DNA of 64,000 nt from Cellulomonas sp. JZ18 (GTDB lineage Bacteria > Actinomycetota > Actinomycetes > Actinomycetales > Cellulomonadaceae): NCBI RefSeq assembly GCF_009720485.1, contig NZ_CP045245.1:1-64000 (forward strand), given 5' to 3'. The notes beneath the pieces were generated by a model that made no database searches, was not told where the DNA came from, and saw only the letters and a list, made by a program, of their open reading frames with translations. Of this stretch, positions 45,725-53,626 are shown piece after piece. Position 1 is the stretch's first letter, and every line of letters begins with the position of its first letter. The translations under genes and the position numbers were made by a program.

Positions 45725-46062
45725 GGGCGTGCGGCCTCCGGGCGGGGGTGGGGGGCGCGGTGAGCCTAGTGGAGGCACCGGGGCGCGTCCGGCGGGTTCC
45801 ACCCGTTCGCCGACGCGGTGGCCGGCACCGGCCGTCGCACTCCAGCGCGAGGACGTCCCATGACTCCAGTGCCGGGCGCCGAGCACAACCACACGTTCGA
45901 GCGACGCGCGCGTCGAGGAGATATGTCAGGGTTACTTACTAATCGCCCGGCGGTGCGCGTCGGAGAGGCCGCGTACCGGGCGTCCGGGTGCGCAGCGCCG
46001 CGTACCCGCACCCGCGTGCAGCACCGCGCGCGGGCCCACCGGGGGGCGAAAGGACGACATCG
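45725..46062. promoter_or_regulatory. Divergent speD / GH64 promoter region
   Basis: 338 bases without a gene. The left end holds the speD promoter candidate (TAGGCT, minus, 45763-45768). The middle has a clear low-GC patch at about 45920-45945 containing TATGTCAGGG and TTACTTACTAATCG, which stands out from its surroundings and is probably the GH64 promoter. No further structure was seen. Confidence 0.5.
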
Positions 46063-47664
46063 ATGCATCAGCTACGGACGTGGCTCACCGCGCTGGTCGT
46101 GGGAGCGCTCTGCGTCATGGGGGCGGCCGCGCCGGCGGCCGCCGTGGGGCCGGACCGGCTCCCCATCACCATCGGCAACCAGTCGGGGCGGGGCGAGCAG
46201 GTGTTCGTCCACGTGCTCGGCACCGACCTGACGACCGGCCGGCTCGGCTGGGTCGACGCCGGCGGCACGTTCCGGCCGTGGCCGGCGGGCTCGAACCCGC
46301 CGTCGCCGGCACCGGACAGCGCGATCGCCGGCCCCGGGAACGGCGGCTCCGTGACCGTGCAGGTGCCGCGCGGGTTCTCCGGCCGCATCTACTTCGCGTT
46401 CGGGCAGCGGCTGCCGTTCTCGCTCACGCCGGACGGGCTCGTGCAGCCCGCGCCGTGGGCCGCCGGCGACCCGACGCGCGACATCCTGTTCGACTGGAGC
46501 GAGCTCACCTACAACGACGCGGGCCTGTGGCTGAACAGCTCGCAGGTCGACATGTTCGCCGTGCCGCACTCGGTCAGCGTCACGGGTGCCTCGGGTCAGA
46601 CCCGCACCACGGGCCGCCTCGTCGCGGACGGCCGGCAGCAGGTCGTCGACACGCTCCGCGCGGACCCCGCGTGGGCGCGCACGGTCGTCACCCGCGCCGA
46701 CGGCACCGTGCTGCGCGTCCTCGCGCCGGGCAAGGCGGCGAGCGCGGGACTGCTCAGCCCGACGTACCTGGACGCGTACATCGCCTCGGCGTGGAGCGCC
46801 TACACGACCCGCACGCTCACGGTGCAGCCGTTCGGGGACCGGCCCGAGGTCCGCTACACCGGCCGCACCTCCGGCACCACGATGCGGTTCACCGACGCGT
46901 CCGGCCGCGAGGTGGCGGCGTTCCAGCGGCCCTCGTCGTCCGACGTGTGGGGCTGCGACGGCGCGCTGCACGCGCCGAACGACCAGGTCGTCGGGCCGAT
47001 CGCGCGCACGCTGTGCGCCGCGCTGTTCCGCGGGACCCTCGGCACGAGCAGCACGGAGCCCGTGCTCGACGCCGCGCAGTTCTACCGCAGCACCCCGCCC
47101 AACCTGTACGGCCGGGCGGTGCACGCCGCGATGGTCGACGGCCGCGCGTACGCCTTCGCGTTCGACGACGTCGGCGCGTTCGAGTCGCTCGTGCACGACG
47201 GCGACCCGCGCAGCGCGCGCGTCGACCTCACGCCGTTCGCCGGCGGCGGGGGCACGCCGGGGGGCGGCACGGGCGGCAGCGACGGGCAGGCGCTCGTCAG
47301 CCGGTGGAACGGCAAGTGCCTCGACGTGCCGGGCGGCGTCTTCACCGCCGGGGCGCGCGTGCAGATGTGGAGCTGCAACGGGACCGAGGCGCAGCGCTGG
47401 CAGCAGACGGGAGGCGCGTTGCGCACGGGAGGCGGACAGTGCCTCGACGTGGTGTGGGGAGGCACCGCGAACGGCACCCCCGTGCAGGTCGCCGACTGCA
47501 GCGGCAACGCCGCCCAGCAGTGGGTGCTGACGGCGGCGGGTGACCTCGTGAACCCGCAGTCCGGCCGGTGCCTCGACATCGCCGACTGGAACGGCGCGGA
47601 CGGCGCACGCCTGCAGGTCTGGGACTGCGCCGGTTCGGCCAACCAGAGGTGGACCCGGCGCTGA
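46063..47664 (+). CDS. Secreted GH64 beta-1,3-glucanase with ricin-type lectin domain
   Basis: A laminaripentaose-type endo-beta-1,3-glucanase. It is 533 residues from ATG 46063 after GAAAGGACG, with a signal peptide ending near PAAAV. The GH64 domain (PITIGNQSGRGEQVFVHVLG, GRLGWVDAGGTFRPWP, RIYFAFGQRLPFSL, FDWSELTYND, NSSQVDMFAVPHSV) extends to about residue 400. A Gly/Thr linker leads to a CBM13/ricin-B trefoil with three QxW-type repeats (AQRWQQ, AQQWVL, NQRWTR). Such enzymes attack fungal walls or callose. Two hairpins follow. Confidence 0.94.
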   Translation: MHQLRTWLTALVVGALCVMGAAAPAAAVGPDRLPITIGNQSGRGEQVFVHVLGTDLTTGRLGWVDAGGTFRPWPAGSNPPSPAPDSAIAGPGNGGSVTVQVPRGFSGRIYFAFGQRLPFSLTPDGLVQPAPWAAGDPTRDILFDWSELTYNDAGLWLNSSQVDMFAVPHSVSVTGASGQTRTTGRLVADGRQQVVDTLRADPAWARTVVTRADGTVLRVLAPGKAASAGLLSPTYLDAYIASAWSAYTTRTLTVQPFGDRPEVRYTGRTSGTTMRFTDASGREVAAFQRPSSSDVWGCDGALHAPNDQVVGPIARTLCAALFRGTLGTSSTEPVLDAAQFYRSTPPNLYGRAVHAAMVDGRAYAFAFDDVGAFESLVHDGDPRSARVDLTPFAGGGGTPGGGTGGSDGQALVSRWNGKCLDVPGGVFTAGARVQMWSCNGTEAQRWQQTGGALRTGGGQCLDVVWGGTANGTPVQVADCSGNAAQQWVLTAAGDLVNPQSGRCLDIADWNGADGARLQVWDCAGSANQRWTRR

Positions 47665-47852: not shown

Positions 47853-48926
47853 TCAGACCTCGGTCGTGCGACCGCGGCGGCGCAGGATCATCAGGACGGC
47901 ACCCGCGGCCACGGCCGCGACGGCGGCGAAGAGGCCGACGAGGACCGACGTGCCGGTGGCCGCGAGCACCTGGCCGCGGCTGCCGCCCGACGCGTCGTCG
48001 TCCGTGGCGGCGAGGACCTCGGCGCGCTCGGTCACCGACGGCGTGGGCGCCGGCGTGGTCGGTGCGGCGACGGGGGTCGGCGTCGCGGTCGGCGTCGGCG
48101 TGGCGGTCGGGCTGGGCTCGTCGTCCACGTCCCCCGTGGGCGTCGGGGTGGGCGCCGGCGGCGTCGGCGTCGGGGTCGGCTCGTCGTCCACGTCCTGGGT
48201 CGGCGTGGGCGTCGGGACGACCGGCGGGGTCGGGACCACGGGCGGCGTCGGCGTCGGCGGCGCGCACAGGGTGGCGACGTCGATCAGCTCGGCCACGTCG
48301 TAGTGGCCGTAGAACGCGAGCGTGTGCGGCGTGTTGAACCCGCCGTCGGGGGGCGTGATGACGGTCGGCACGAGCGAGGGCACGTCGAGCCCGCGGCCGG
48401 CGACGAAGTCGCCCACGAGGTCGACCTGCAGGCCGAACGCGGCGGGGTCGGCGCAGACGGCCGCGGTGTCGGCGGCGTCGAGCTGGAGCGGGATGACGTC
48501 GTACTCGCGGGGGAGCTGCTGCGACGCGCCGTGGCGCTGCCGGTCGTCCGCCGTGGGCCACGCCCACGTCGGGTGCAGCGCCACGCGGTGCTGCTGCTTG
48601 CTGTTCGACCAGTTCGCCGACTTGCGGCGGTCCTTCTTCTCGTAGAGGAAGTAGCCGGTCGCCTTGGCGCACGTGTAGGCGTTCGGCGCGATGACGTCGT
48701 TCGCGCGGTAGCCGCCGCACAGCTCGGGCCGCGGCGTGCCGGGCTTGCCGGGCTTGCCCTGGTCGCCCTTGCCGGGCTTGCCGTGGTCGCCCTTGCCGGG
48801 CCAGCCGTGCCAGGTGCTGGCGCCCCAGCGGTGGTCGCCGTCGCCGGTGGCCGTGGCGGCCGTGGCGGGGGCGAGCAGCAGGGCGCTCGCGGTGAGCAGG
48901 ACGAGGGGGAGGTGACGACGCTTCAC
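47853..48926 (-). CDS. Cell-wall-anchored surface protein with LAATG sorting signal
   Basis: A 357-residue secreted protein: signal peptide MKRRHLPLVLLTASALLLAP, a Gly/Lys/Pro stretch (GKGDHGKPGKGDQGKPGKPG), then a globular domain with paired Cys (ELCGGYRANDVIAPNAYTC, AVCADPAAFGLQVDLVGDF, HYDVAELIDVATLC). A PTPT-rich wall spacer with two DVDDEP/S repeats follows, and the sorting signal is VLAATG, a hydrophobic helix and RRRGR. LAATG fits the class E sortase consensus LAXTG, and such a sortase is encoded at 25486. The domain is not one I recognise. A decoy VLAAT stands 16 residues before the real signal. Confidence 0.88.
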   Translation of the reverse strand: MKRRHLPLVLLTASALLLAPATAATATGDGDHRWGASTWHGWPGKGDHGKPGKGDQGKPGKPGTPRPELCGGYRANDVIAPNAYTCAKATGYFLYEKKDRRKSANWSNSKQQHRVALHPTWAWPTADDRQRHGASQQLPREYDVIPLQLDAADTAAVCADPAAFGLQVDLVGDFVAGRGLDVPSLVPTVITPPDGGFNTPHTLAFYGHYDVAELIDVATLCAPPTPTPPVVPTPPVVPTPTPTQDVDDEPTPTPTPPAPTPTPTGDVDDEPSPTATPTPTATPTPVAAPTTPAPTPSVTERAEVLAATDDDASGGSRGQVLAATGTSVLVGLFAAVAAVAAGAVLMILRRRGRTTEV

Positions 48927-49169: not shown

Positions 49170-49805
49170 GTGATCCTCGTGACCCCTGCCGCGCCCGCCC
49201 ACGCCGACGAGGTGGCCCACGTGCTCGCGGAGGCGTTCGAGGACGACCCCGTCCTCGCGGGCGTCGTCGGCGGGCCCGCCGGCCCCGCCCGGCGGACGCG
49301 GCTGCTGCACCTGTTCGGCGCGCTCGTGCGCTCCGGGCCCCTGCGGGCGGGGACGGTGGACGTCGCCCGGCGCGAGGGGGACGACCGCGTGCTCGGCGCC
49401 GCCGTCTGGCAGGCACCGGGGGCGGCGCCCGGGCTGGTCGGCCACCTGGGGCAGCTGCCGCGCCTGCTGCGCGTCGATGGGCCGGCGGGGCTGCTGCGCG
49501 CGGCCTCCGTCCAGCGGGTGCTCGACGCGCACCGGCCGCGCCGCCCGCACTGGTACCTGCAGGAGATCGGCGTGCGGGCGTCGGCCCGCGGCCTGGGCGT
49601 CGGGGGTGCGCTCGTCGCGGCCCGCCTCGCCGCCGTCGACGGGCAGGACGCGCCCGCCTTCCTCGAGTCCTCGACGCCGCGCAACCGTCGCCTGTACCGG
49701 CGGCACGGGTTCGTCGAGACCGCGCCGGTACGGGGACTGCCCGGCGCGGCGCCCACCGGGATGTGGCGGGCACCGCGGAGCGAGCGCGCGACGCCCCCCG
49801 GATGA
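49170..49805 (+). CDS. GNAT-family N-acetyltransferase
   Basis: A 211-residue acetyltransferase from GTG 49170 with AGGAG upstream. N-terminal VTPAAPAHADEVAHVLAEAF, then the CoA-binding core WYLQEIGVRASARGLGVGGA and the closing ESSTPRNRRLYRRHGFVET. Typical of small-molecule GNATs; substrate unknown. Confidence 0.86.
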   Translation: MILVTPAAPAHADEVAHVLAEAFEDDPVLAGVVGGPAGPARRTRLLHLFGALVRSGPLRAGTVDVARREGDDRVLGAAVWQAPGAAPGLVGHLGQLPRLLRVDGPAGLLRAASVQRVLDAHRPRRPHWYLQEIGVRASARGLGVGGALVAARLAAVDGQDAPAFLESSTPRNRRLYRRHGFVETAPVRGLPGAAPTGMWRAPRSERATPPG

Positions 49806-49832: not shown

Positions 49833-49861
49833 TTGGCGACGTCGATGACGAGGCGTACGGT
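49833..49861 (+). promoter_or_regulatory. Strong promoter of the structured RNA/micro-ORF
   Basis: TTGGCG (49833-49838) and TACGGT (49856-49861) are spaced by exactly 17 bases, among the best sigma-70-type matches in the window. Transcription would start near 49868, only a few bases before AAGGAGG. Confidence 0.65.
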
Positions 49862-49867
49862 CGTGGG

Positions 49868-50090
49868 CACACGGGAAGGAGGTGGTCCGAGACATGAAGT
49901 CTTCTTGGACGCGTGAGGTGACTGCCCGCTAGTCGCCCGAGGCATCGGACGGACTCCGAGGTCCGCCCGCACCCGAGCCGGTGATCCGGCCGGGCGGCGA
50001 GCGAATCCCCGGCAGTCACCGCAGCCCGTGGGTGCCGCGACATCGTCCATCGCGGCGGGGTCCTCGTCGAGAGGGCCCGCCCCACGGGCT
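49868..50090 (+). ncRNA. Candidate structured leader or small RNA upstream of map
   Basis: The 343-base gap between the acetyltransferase and map holds nested perfect complementarities: GTCC/GGAC plus AGAC/GTCT with loop ATGAA (49885-49910); GGTGACTGCC (49917-49926) with GGCAGTCACC (50011-50020); CGGAC/GTCCG (49946-49965); GCCGG/CCGGC (49977-49990); AGCCCGTGGG (50023-50032) with CCCACGGGCT (50081-50090); and GCCGCGA/TCGCGGC (50034-50056). A strong promoter precedes it. I do not recognise a known RNA family. It could be a cis-acting leader of map or a stand-alone RNA. Confidence 0.5.
49894..49932 (+). CDS. 12-residue micro-ORF with strong ribosome site
   Basis: ATG AAG TCT TCT TGG ... encodes MKSSWTREVTAR and a TAG stop. 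AAGGAGG (49876-49882) precedes it with 11 bases of spacing. The codons include TCT, CGT and ACT, rare in this GC-rich genome. The start codon sits in the loop of a hairpin, and the last codons form one arm of a long-range stem. It may be a leader peptide; coding status is unproven. Confidence 0.45.
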   Translation: MKSSWTREVTAR

Positions 50091-50148
50091 GTTCCCTGCC
50101 CGCGCACGGTGACACGCCGCGGCGCGCGGTGGATGAGAGGGTGGGACC

Positions 50149-50913
50149 GTGCCCCTGAAGACGCCCGCCCAGATCGAGGAGATGCGGCCCGCGGGCCGCT
50201 TCGTCGCCCACGTCCTGACGTCGCTGCGCGAGCACGCCCGCGTGGGCATGACGACGAAGGACCTGGACGCGCACGCCCACCGCCTCATCGACGAGGCCGG
50301 GGCCCGCTCCGTCTACCTGGGGTACCACCCGAGCTTCGGCGCCATGCCGTACCCCGGTGTGCTCTGCACGTCCGTGAACGACCACGCGCTGCACGGCCTG
50401 CCGTCGGAGCGCGTGCTCGAGGACGGTGACGTCCTCAGCATCGACTTCGCCGCCGAGCTGCAGGGCTGGGTGTGCGACTCCGCGCTGACGTTCCAGCTCG
50501 GCACGCAGACCCCCGAGGCGCAGCGGCTGATCGCGGCGACGGAGCAGGCGCTCGACGCCGGCATCGCCGCCGCGCGCGTGGGCGGGCGCATGGGGGACGT
50601 GTCCGCGGCGATCGGCCGGATCGGCCGGGACGCGGGGTACGGGATCAACGCGGACTTCGGCGGCCACGGCGTCGGCCGCACGATGCACGAGGACCCGCAC
50701 GTGCCGAACCTCGGCCGCCGCGGCACCGGTGACCGCCTCAAGGCAGGCCTCGTCGTCGCCATCGAGCCGTGGTTCATGGCGGGCGGCGACGGCTACGTCG
50801 TCGACGACGACGGCTGGACGATCCGGACGGCCGACGGCGCGCTGGCCGCGCACGCCGAGCACACGGTCGCGCTGACCCCGGAGGGCCCGCTCGTCCTGAC
50901 TGCCCGCGACTGA
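50149..50913 (+). CDS. map: Type I methionine aminopeptidase
   Basis: Removes N-terminal methionine from nascent proteins. It is 254 residues from GTG 50149. All five metal ligands and the catalytic His are present: His in YLGYHPSFG, Asp in LSIDFAAELQGWVCDSALTF (two), His in GGHGVGRTMHEDPHV, Glu in VAIEPWFM and Glu in AEHTVALT. There is no N-terminal SH3-binding zinc domain. It lies 58 bases past the structured RNA region and may be controlled by it. Confidence 0.95.
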   Translation: MPLKTPAQIEEMRPAGRFVAHVLTSLREHARVGMTTKDLDAHAHRLIDEAGARSVYLGYHPSFGAMPYPGVLCTSVNDHALHGLPSERVLEDGDVLSIDFAAELQGWVCDSALTFQLGTQTPEAQRLIAATEQALDAGIAAARVGGRMGDVSAAIGRIGRDAGYGINADFGGHGVGRTMHEDPHVPNLGRRGTGDRLKAGLVVAIEPWFMAGGDGYVVDDDGWTIRTADGALAAHAEHTVALTPEGPLVLTARD

Positions 50914-51916: not shown

Positions 51917-52336
51917 CTACGCCGTGCGGACCGGCACGCCCAGCGACTCCAGCAGCGTGACCACGCGGCCGCGGATCTCGTCGCGGATCGGCCGCACCGC
52001 CTCGATGCCCTGGCCCGCGGGGTCGTCGAGCTGCCAGTCCTCGTAGCGGACCCCGGGGTAGAAGGGGCAGGCGTCGCCGCAGCCCATGGTGACCACCACG
52101 TCGGAGGCCTGGACGGCCTCGGGGGTGAGCACCTTCGGCTGCTCGCCCGTGAGGTCCACGCCGACCTCGCGCATGGCCTCGACCGCCACCGGGTTGATGC
52201 GCTCGGCGGGCATCGACCCGGCGGAGCGCACCTCGACGGCGCCGCCGGACAGGGCGCGCACGAAGCCCGCGGCCATCTGGGAGCGGCCCGCGTTGTGCAC
52301 GCAGACGAAGAGCACGGACGGGGTCGGGGCGGTCAT
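51917..52336 (-). CDS. arsC: Arsenate reductase, low-molecular-weight phosphatase type
   Basis: Reduces arsenate to arsenite. It is 139 residues from ATG 52336 with GGAGGAG upstream. The P-loop VCVHNAGRSQ holds the nucleophilic Cys; the resolving pair is in TMGCGDACPFYPG; and EDWQLDDPAGQ is the general-acid region. The pattern is the thioredoxin-coupled (pI258-like) type. ATGA overlap with the arsR stop shows that the two are one operon. Confidence 0.94.
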   Translation of the reverse strand: MTAPTPSVLFVCVHNAGRSQMAAGFVRALSGGAVEVRSAGSMPAERINPVAVEAMREVGVDLTGEQPKVLTPEAVQASDVVVTMGCGDACPFYPGVRYEDWQLDDPAGQGIEAVRPIRDEIRGRVVTLLESLGVPVRTA

Positions 52337-52728
52337 CGTGCTCCTCCGGCGGGGGTGGGGGTGGCAGTGGCGGGGGCGAGGGTCGCCGCGAGGGCGCCGG
52401 CGACGAGGTCGTGGGCCCGGCCGGCGACGCGGAAGTAGGCCCACCGGCCGCGCTGCTCGCGCGTGACGAGGCCGGCCTCGGCGAGCGTCGCCATGTGGTG
52501 GGAGACCGTGGGCTGGGAGAGGCCCACCGGACCGGTGAGGTCGCAGATGCACGCCTCGCCGTCCTCCTGGGCCGCGATCAGCGAGAGCAGCCGGACCCGC
52601 GCCGGGTCGGCGAGGGCCTTGAACGTGCGGGCCACGTCACGGGCGGCGTCGGCGTCGAGGCCGGCGTCGGGGGTGCCGCAGCAGCCGCCGGCGGAGGTGT
52701 CGGCCGCGAGGGGCAGGAGGTCGGGCAC
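52333..52728 (-). CDS. arsR: ArsR-family metalloregulator
   Basis: A 131-residue winged-helix repressor of the arsenic genes. The helix-turn-helix is PVGLSQPTVSHHMATLAEAG, preceded by EACICDL, the usual As(III)-binding Cys-x-Cys. A further N-terminal Cys pair (GGCCGTPDAG) could be an extra ligand. GTG 52728 is chosen; an in-frame ATG at 52788 would lie inside the operator. It is divergent from arsM and read with arsC. Confidence 0.92.
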   Translation of the reverse strand: MPDLLPLAADTSAGGCCGTPDAGLDADAARDVARTFKALADPARVRLLSLIAAQEDGEACICDLTGPVGLSQPTVSHHMATLAEAGLVTREQRGRWAYFRVAGRAHDLVAGALAATLAPATATPTPAGGAR

Positions 52729-52778
52729 CGGCCCATCGTGGCACACGTATTGACAGATGTCGATGTGTCGGTCCAGGG

Positions 52779-52792
52779 TTCGATGCATCGAA
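52779..52792. promoter_or_regulatory. ArsR operator palindrome between arsR and arsM
   Basis: TTCGATGCATCGAA is a perfect 14-base palindrome in the divergent gap, flanked by ATCGACAT and TTCATCGAT partial copies. It lies 51 bases upstream of the arsR start and 25 bases upstream of arsM, so one repressor could control both. Confidence 0.75.
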
Positions 52793-52816
52793 GTTCATCG
52801 ATACGTGGAGGACGAC

Positions 52817-53626
52817 ATGAACACGAGCGCGACCACGCACGAGGTCCGCGAGACGGTCCGCCAGCGGTACGCCGCCGTCGCGACCGAGGCGGCGGCGGGC
52901 GCCCACCCGTCCGACGGCACGGCGACCGACGGCGGGTGCTGCGGCGGCACGGGAGGCTGCGGCGGAACGGGGTGCTGCGGTGGCGCCGCAGCACCGACGT
53001 TCGGCGCCGGGCTCTACGACGCGAGCGACCTCGTGGGCCTGCCGCGGGCGGCCGTCGGCGCGAGCCTCGGCTGCGGCGACCCCACCGCGGTCGCCGACCT
53101 GCGGCCGGGCGAGCGCGTCCTCGACCTCGGCTCGGGCGCCGGCATCGACGTGCTGCTCTCGGCCCGGCGCGTGGGGGCCGAGGGCTTCGTCCACGGGGTC
53201 GACATGACCGAGGAGATGCTGGCCCTCGCCCGTGCCAACGCGGCCGAGGCGGGTGCGACCAACGTCGCCTTCCACCTCGGCACCATCGAGGACCTGCCGC
53301 TGCCCGACGCGTGCGTCGACGTCGTCGTCTCCAACTGCGTCGTCAACCTCTCGCCGGACAAGGACGCCGTGCTCGCCGAGGCACACCGCGTGCTGGTGCC
53401 GGGCGGGCGGCTCGGCATCTCGGACGTCGTCGCGGAGGACCGGCTGACCCCGGCCGACCGGGCCGCCCGCGGCGACCACGTCGGGTGCGTCGCGGGGGCG
53501 CTGTCGTTCGCGGAGTACACCGCGGCGCTCACCGCGGCCGGCTTCGTCGATGTGCGCGTCGAGCCCACGCACGCGGTGGCCGACGGCATGCACGCGGCCG
53601 TCGTGCGGGCGGTCAAGCCTCGCTGA
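52817..53626 (+). CDS. arsM: Arsenite S-adenosylmethionine methyltransferase
   Basis: Methylates trivalent arsenic, giving volatile or less toxic forms. It is 269 residues from ATG 52817 after GTGGAGG. The N terminus carries a Cys/Gly cluster (GGCCGGTGGCGGTGCCGGAA). SAM motif I is VLDLGSGAGIDVLL, with VHGVDMTEEMLALARANA, the conserved NCVVNLSPDKDAVLAEAHRV and GDHVGCVAGAL, supplying the later catalytic Cys residues. It is divergent from arsR-arsC, completing a compact detoxification locus. Confidence 0.94.
   Translation: MNTSATTHEVRETVRQRYAAVATEAAAGAHPSDGTATDGGCCGGTGGCGGTGCCGGAAAPTFGAGLYDASDLVGLPRAAVGASLGCGDPTAVADLRPGERVLDLGSGAGIDVLLSARRVGAEGFVHGVDMTEEMLALARANAAEAGATNVAFHLGTIEDLPLPDACVDVVVSNCVVNLSPDKDAVLAEAHRVLVPGGRLGISDVVAEDRLTPADRAARGDHVGCVAGALSFAEYTAALTAAGFVDVRVEPTHAVADGMHAAVVRAVKPR

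Follow-up and report, generated by a model that had tools for sequence, protein, structure and literature searches.

An Ms_IGR-5 RNA of Cellulomonas Carrying a Conserved Mini-ORF and a Complement of the 16S rRNA Tail: A Candidate Ribosome-Responsive Switch

The RNA Gene and Its Surroundings

The stretch of DNA considered here, referred to as the window, comprises the first 64,000 nucleotides of contig NZ_CP045245.1 from Cellulomonas sp. JZ18. On its forward (+) strand, a GNAT acetyltransferase gene (49170–49805; Pfam PF13508 and PF00583) and the map gene (50149–50913; PF00557), coding for a methionine aminopeptidase of family M24, flank a structured RNA located at 49869–50097 (+). The cmscan program assigns this RNA to the Rfam family RF02471 (Ms_IGR-5, "Actinobacteria sRNA") at a score of 78.9 bits, the gathering cut-off being 45 (E 9.2e-16), and the model is covered from end to end (positions 1–184 of 184). 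The RNA is a Cellulomonas-type member of a known family and is followed, 51 nt downstream and on the same strand, by map, which lies outside the RNA gene. Depending on the claim, a preliminary description made from the sequence by itself has aged differently: a structured plus-strand RNA with a promoter was correctly recognized, whereas the RNA was wrongly considered as unrecognized and tied to map, and the mini-ORF, the complement of the 16S tail and the pseudoknot described below escaped it. Its failure to match the RNA to a known riboswitch, tmRNA, SRP RNA or RNase P RNA agrees with the Rfam scan run on the entire window, which returned four matches at the gathering score, namely RF02471 and three tRNAs, and none for tmRNA, SRP RNA, RNase P RNA, 6S RNA or the described riboswitches.

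The family reportedly originates from a founding paper by Li et al. published in 2013 in RNA. The available text of the open-licence literature searched states no function for this family, which is conserved in many actinobacteria, and gives no description of the ORF, the 16S complement or the pseudoknot, the open-licence PMC articles naming the family included. According to the accessible parts of two reports, the relative from S. avermitilis was classed as an sRNA unit from transcript-boundary data (PMC8780764) and the relative from S. lividans was validated by RNA-seq (PMC8079986).

The plus strand of the region 49868–50100 has a folding energy of −134.7 kcal/mol, whereas its shuffled versions average −110.6 (z −4.82); none of 200 dinucleotide-preserving shuffles was as stable. 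The heavy structure previously announced is thus readily found, together with the two 10-bp stems (49917–49926 with 50011–50020, and 50023–50032 with 50081–50090) that are present both in the sequence and in the fold. The minus strand is equally structured (z −5.58) and, because helices of this kind fold on both strands, the fold by itself cannot pick the strand. The plus strand was chosen because the Rfam match, the promoter and the ORF all occur on it, and an RNA of the minus strand, in spite of its equal foldability, was rejected for the same reason. Compensatory changes in homologues, on which the preliminary description had made its reading depend, were found within the genus: in an alignment of 35 same-genus sequences (34 distinct), 52 cells are altered on both sides of a helix versus 25.1 in shuffles, a count reached by none of 500 shuffles.

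Other genes of the window deserve a mention in their own right. The ORF at 45988–47664 (+) corresponds to a GH64 β-1,3-glucanase with a C-terminal ricin-type lectin domain, and that at 47853–48926 (−) to a secreted Pro/Thr-repeat protein ending with LAATG, a membrane stretch and RRR, which resembles a sortase anchor by eye and matches no Pfam family at E 0.001. Farther downstream, a methyltransferase-like ORF (52757–53626, +), arsenite methyltransferase (ArsM)-like by eye, contains the Cys/Gly-rich stretch GGCCGGTGGCGGTGCCGG, and an ArsR-type regulator-like ORF occurs just before it on the opposite strand (52333–52788).

Distribution

The Rfam model was matched in 48 of 58 relatives (47 above the cut-off), in 57 of 296 genomes sampled across the phylum (26 above the cut-off), and in none of 14 control genomes. 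Three genomes being common to both sets, the hits represent 102 distinct genomes, each with one match, and consist of a same-genus subset of 35 and 67 other hits. The 31 phylum hits below the cut-off were kept among the 102, and nearly all of these 31 retain, by eye, the 5′ block and the ORF. A DNA pattern of the core, searched in one genome per prokaryote species, occurs at a minimum of 120 loci (at least 120), and the 80 titles among the matches listed are all Actinomycetota by name. The two collections are of a distinct nature, as the 102 covariance-model hits are unselected by the core pattern and the 120 listed loci are selected by it. The core pattern is absent from all 15 genomes examined that lack an Rfam hit (10 relatives and 5 others), which led us to discard missed copies in Rfam-negative genomes; with the Rfam hit absent in 10 of the 58 relatives, the RNA is taken to be dispensable in some lineages. 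A phage origin was also rejected, viral contigs containing no exact match to the core pattern, used as one strict pattern.

Promoter, 3′ End and Neighbouring Genes

The promoter quoted earlier for the RNA (49833–49861, +), made of TTGGCG (49833–49838) and TACGGT (49856–49861) separated by 17 nt and placing the RNA start at 49868/49869, keeps its position in relatives; its boxes are present in the sequence, though a generic sigma-70 scan reported no promoter at the locus. Of the 35 same-genus genomes, 33 have a TANNNT box 12–13 nt before the RNA starts, where shuffles predict 0.7. The box is found at this distance in 44 of 66 other hits as well (2.7 predicted), one of the 67 having been dropped for too little upstream sequence. 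Both this box and a TTG situated 16–19 nt further up occur in 26/35 same-genus genomes (0.02 expected) and 23/66 others (0.13 expected).

With respect to the 3′ end, 17 of the 39 distant hits (38 belonging to other classes, plus L167 of the same class) have a hairpin resembling an intrinsic terminator, with a T-run, directly after the RNA, versus 1.0 expected. Among the 63 Actinomycetes hits, no U-tract terminator was found after the RNA (0.6 expected), and no terminator-like site was recognized between the RNA and map in this window. Owing to the lack of a terminator in the Actinomycetes hits, the 3′ end is provisional here and read-through into map is possible in this species. In the overall explanation that we favour, at slightly better than even odds for the whole of it, the RNA's own promoter would give a transcript that starts at about 49868/49869 and whose end falls, near 50097, within the 3′ hairpin or beyond it.

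The close vicinity of map, 51 nt away on the same strand without any terminator recognized in between, is in favour of a 5′ leader controlling map as an attenuator or a riboswitch, in line with the tie implied by the preliminary description. This tie does not survive the comparison of genomes: map follows the RNA in 20 of the 35 genomes of the genus and in none of the 67 other hits (downstream flank of <400 nt in 3, 400–1499 nt in 26 and ≥1500 nt in 38 of these), and in 6 of the 120 pattern-found loci listed, 5 of the 6 being ≤300 nt from the Shine–Dalgarno sequence. Moreover, the stems P2 and P3 described below are adjacent and non-competing, so that no terminator/anti-terminator switch is seen; a mutually exclusive terminator and anti-terminator pair was not found, P3 forming in all constrained folds. 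A leader of map, rejected on synteny, is therefore highly improbable.

The gene neighbours of the RNA change from genus to genus, as judged with a crude ORF caller and with families named by eye. They are, presumably, pabC/ygfZ and an Rv0813c-like protein in mycobacteria, RNase Z in Micromonosporaceae, Nei and GNAT in Amycolatopsis, NhaA in Geodermatophilaceae, and pdxH in Streptomyces. The first downstream ORF delineated by the crude ORF caller at the 120 pattern-found loci listed has the same direction in 61, is convergent in 49 and is lacking in 10. These varied neighbours, the mixed ORF directions and the terminators of the distant hits argue for a free-standing gene, with a possible map read-through transcript in this window.

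Complementarity to the 16S rRNA

The segment GGGAAGGAGGUGGUCCG (49873–49889, +), located near the start of the RNA, can form 17 contiguous pairs with the last 17 nt of the 16S rRNA, in a gap-free duplex of 13 Watson–Crick and 4 G-U pairs (−29.5 kcal/mol). The corresponding 16S tail, GGCTGGATCACCTCCTTTCT, occurs three times in this genome. On comparing both sequences, the 5′ end of the RNA is complementary to the complete 3′ tail of the 16S rRNA. This property is shared by all the hits: the duplex ranges from −25.6 to −35.8 kcal/mol (median −30.5) over the 102 hits, calculated for every hit with the tail of this genome, as against a median of −10.6 and a best value of −23.2 kcal/mol for the 24 nt preceding 398 predicted neighbour genes, whose starts derive from a crude ORF caller.

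The genome contains three exact copies of RGGAGGTGGTCC, that of the RNA included; the two others are located at G000:C1:702018-702029 (L227) and 3745846-3745857 (L228). Ribosome footprints on MS_IGR-5 homologues of M. abscessus and M. smegmatis are reported in the available text of PMC4974804, along with the caution that footprints are common to most characterised E. coli ncRNAs.

Directly after the 16S-complementary segment comes a mini-ORF, ATG AAG TCT TCT TGG ACG CGT GAG GTG ACT GCC CGC TAG (49894–49932, +), which upon translation would give the peptide MKSSWTREVTAR followed by the stop.

Stems and Pseudoknot

The predicted stem P0 (49870–49915, +), in which 49870–49873 (CACG) pair with 49912–49915 (CGUG), closes a 5′ domain and frames the Shine–Dalgarno sequence and the start codon. 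Among the 102 hits, all four pairs are formed in 82, three in 16, two in 3 and one in 1, with variants such as CACG/CGUG, CACA/UGUG, CCAG/CUGG, CUUC/GAAG and CGUA/UACG. Covariation supports this stem, 18 of 25 distinct arm combinations being fully paired versus a shuffle mean of 4.0 and a maximum of 9 in 2000 shuffles. It is also fully paired in 111 of 117 pattern-found loci listed (3 of the 120 were dropped, the anchor being absent), where the comparison of distinct arm combinations is a weak one (6 of 10 fully paired, 4.4 by shuffling, maximum 8), the search pattern itself fixing most of the 3′ arm.

Inside P0, the GGAC of the ORF has, from the pairing possibilities conserved among hits, two alternative partners, either the GUCC at the end of the 16S-complementary segment (P1) or the loop of a 3′ hairpin (pseudoknot). 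Stem P1 (49885–49910, +) would associate 49885–49888 (GUCC) with 49907–49910 (GGAC), with 4/4 pairs in 85 of 102 hits, and excludes the pseudoknot; it has no room to covary, as its 5′ strand is at the same time that of the 16S pairing and hardly varies. The pseudoknot (49906–50049, +) would associate 49906–49911 (UGGACG, in the ORF) with 50044–50049 (CGUCCA, in the 3′ hairpin loop), and its covariation is partial. The inner pair, formed by the nucleotide after GGAC and the nucleotide before the GUCC of the loop, is of the Watson–Crick type in 74 of 89 hits, versus 37.5 expected and a maximum of 50 in 2000 shuffles, and takes all four Watson–Crick forms (23 of 35 distinct combinations versus 10.1 shuffled, maximum 18). 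The outermost pair, 49906–50049, is unsupported (12 of 35 distinct, shuffle mean 8.9, maximum 18).

Of 222 sequences (the 102 hits plus the 120 loci listed), 29 yielded no GGAC or no GTCC hairpin loop, and 7 of the 102 hits are devoid of GGAC. One of these 7, L166, offers an alternative in which UCGACC of the ORF matches GGUCGA of the loop by six of six pairs. L200 and L198, the latter devoid of such a loop, are exceptions to the pseudoknot. L198 and L201 are reduced RNAs without the P3 loop and the pseudoknot partner, and L198 terminates in a simple terminator hairpin. Their existence suggests that the half docking to the ribosome may occur by itself.

Stem P2 (49917–50020, +) pairs 49917–49926, i.e., the last codons of the ORF, with 50011–50020, and encloses a variable domain that holds the stop codon. 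It is supported by the fold and by covariation within the genus; phylum-wide, the covariation is weak and of little discrimination (16 of 17 distinct arms paired with their own partner versus 14.1 when swapped, maximum 17). Stem P3 (50021–50092, +), supported likewise by the fold and by genus covariation, pairs 50021–50032 with 50081–50092 and contains two hairpins, the first of which bears the pseudoknot strand in its loop. When applied to the genus alignment, RNAalifold returned P1, P2 and P3, P0 being absent.

Compared to the other members of Ms_IGR-5, the RNA shows a full-length match over the gathering score, the same 5′ and 3′ blocks and a single copy per hit genome, but the first helix of the Rfam model is none of P0, P1, P2 and the pseudoknot described here. 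This helix (GGUGGU with gCugCc) pairs the Shine–Dalgarno segment with the 5′ arm of P2 and has 6/6 pairs in 51 hits, 5 in 40, 4 in 9 and 3 in 2 of the 102, its strands being also used by the better supported helices.

Reading Frame and Peptide of the Mini-ORF

An in-frame ATG, GTG, TTG or CTG occurs in 83 of 92 distinct hits (identical linkers merged, from 102), against 29.8 expected from composition shuffles of the linker and a maximum of 49 in 20000 simulations. With CTG left out, the count is 76 versus 23.9 expected for the same 92 hits, and the same count in the two other frames gives 25 and 10. Among the pattern-found loci listed, 104 of 105 distinct sequences (merged from 120) have the in-frame start, versus 31.4. 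The start codon occurs 8–13 nt after GGAGG across hits, in a variable and mostly unpaired linker that measures 24 to 40 nt between GGAGG and GAG, and shifts along with its length. This behaviour is hardly that of a frame produced as a by-product of structure, in an RNA never translated and simply anchored on the 16S rRNA by a Shine–Dalgarno-like segment. The GAG GTG and the stop do lie within conserved helices, and seven distinct hits have only non-canonical starts, yet the start belongs to a mostly unpaired linker of variable length and is nevertheless in frame (83, 25 and 10 for the three frames), so that we regard the by-product explanation as improbable.

Nine of the 92 distinct hits are without an in-frame canonical or CTG start, namely L198, L201 and seven others. 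L198 and L201 possess a TTG in another frame that leads to the same TAG and to the unrelated peptides LLQTSGGDCS and LQQDCGGGSS, each ending at this stop. The seven others need ACG, ATT, ATC or ATA, situated 8 nt after GGAGG in six of them and 9 nt in one. In L172, L179, L180, L183, L184 and L190, an ATT or ATC takes the place of a canonical start, in frame and at precisely 8 nt from GGAGG on its 3′ side. A non-canonical start of the ATT/ATC type is also that of infC. The ATT/ATC starts placed at 8 nt suggest an initiation sensitive to start-codon discrimination.

Unlike the frame, the peptide varies. In codons 2–4, positions 1 and 2 are as variable as position 3, and the constant residues T, E and V are encoded by nucleotides that helices fix. 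A short mRNA whose selected product is a functional 12-residue peptide would account for the conserved frame and length and for the motif TREV[AT][AV][RS], which recurs in Actinomycetes. The recurrent residues, however, fall where P0, P1/pseudoknot and P2 fix the nucleotides, and residue 7 (R, C, S, E or Y) tracks the pairing of P0. In addition, L198 and L201 retain an ORF despite their unrelated peptides, and distant hits have other residues and ORFs of 10–14 codons; a functional peptide is accordingly quite improbable.

Of 90 distinct hits, 73 use TAG as the stop codon, versus 80 of 399 neighbour genes, and this preference may be structural, the stop being inside the P2 domain. To judge from the aligned hits, the reading frame is kept across the phylum and the peptide is free, and the short ORF has its stop at a constant position within the helix that follows. 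Since the frame is kept and the peptide is not, selection appears to act on the presence of an ORF with a fixed end.

A conventional trans-acting antisense sRNA, pairing with mRNAs and possessing an ORF that is secondary or helps to open the structure, has also to be considered. It fits a single-copy, free-standing and structured RNA, named as an sRNA in Rfam and an sRNA unit in S. avermitilis in the available text of PMC8780764, and would even be compatible with a ribosome-responsive switch if ribosome occupancy merely gates the sRNA. It leaves unexplained the complementarity to 16S rRNA, far above that of ordinary genes in 102 of 102 hits, and the reading frame kept over the phylum, and appears rather doubtful.

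A Putative Ribosome-Responsive Switch

The reading we prefer, with a probability of roughly 0.55, is that this free-standing small RNA acts as a ribosome-responsive switch, remodelled by a docking or a translating ribosome. A 30S subunit would dock via the 16S pairing and thereby open P1. The freed GGAC could then pair with the 3′ loop, the resulting pseudoknot being located about 14 nt past the start codon, at the edge of the 30S footprint. A ribosome reading on would melt the pseudoknot and P2, and halt at the stop codon within P2. The RNA would thus adopt distinct folds when free, 30S-bound and translated, and would act in trans or on its own stability, because the comparison reveals no conserved downstream gene that could be a cis target. 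Constrained folds yield approximately −134.6 kcal/mol for the free RNA, −124.7 when 16S-paired, −120.4 with a ribosome at the start and −110.7 with a ribosome at the stop, P2 being lost, as values that leave the pseudoknot outside the program's model and do not add in the 16S pairing gain (about −29.5); P3 is intact in all of them.

Comparison with Known Systems

Several regulatory RNAs resemble part of this arrangement. In the alpha operon/S4 and rpsO/S15 mRNAs, a pseudoknot near the initiation site holds the 30S subunit, in a cis-acting autoregulation with a protein ligand. The pseudoknot by the initiation site, a predicted one in the present RNA, would be a common trait, but these 30S-entrapping RNAs are cis leaders with a protein ligand, whereas neither a conserved downstream gene nor a ligand was found here. 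In leaders of the whiB7, erm and trpL type, translation of a short ORF decides between RNA folds. The RNA would resemble these uORF attenuators by a short ORF whose translation may decide between folds, and differs from them as it occurs without a conserved downstream gene, a competing terminator, a conserved peptide or sensor codons. Ms1 and 6S RNA, in turn, act on RNA polymerase. As conserved structured RNAs titrating a core machine, they offer an analogue for an RNA trapping 30S subunits, with the difference that their target is RNA polymerase; any sequence relation was compared by the Rfam scan alone. Ms1 is mentioned in the accessible part of PMC8628891. The nearest precedent for a trans output through 30S binding is SprF1 from S. 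aureus, which attaches to the ribosome through a purine-rich 5′ end and reduces the loading of mRNA (PMC8938821); the likeness proposed here is drawn from the 16S complementarity and from the published footprints on relatives. In contrast to the present RNA, SprF1 is a type I antitoxin of one species, and the available text of this report mentions no ORF, pseudoknot or full complement of the 16S tail.

A bolder proposal, which we consider unlikely, depicts the RNA as a dedicated 30S trap, a "6S RNA for ribosomes" that would tax Shine–Dalgarno-led initiation. The RNA would grab the whole anti-Shine–Dalgarno tail of the 16S rRNA and initiate poorly, with starts often non-AUG, and the pseudoknot at the channel entrance would lock the 30S subunit. 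The phylum abounds in leaderless mRNAs; in M. smegmatis they amount to 24% of transcripts, according to the available text of PMC6448022. If the trap were true, ribosomes would be shifted towards leaderless messages, or stored, and the RNA would be a regulator of the choice of initiation mode in bacteria with many leaderless mRNAs. More generally, the 16S complement, the frame of the mini-ORF and the pseudoknot lead to a specific and cheaply testable idea, namely that the ribosome may be the ligand of Ms_IGR-5.
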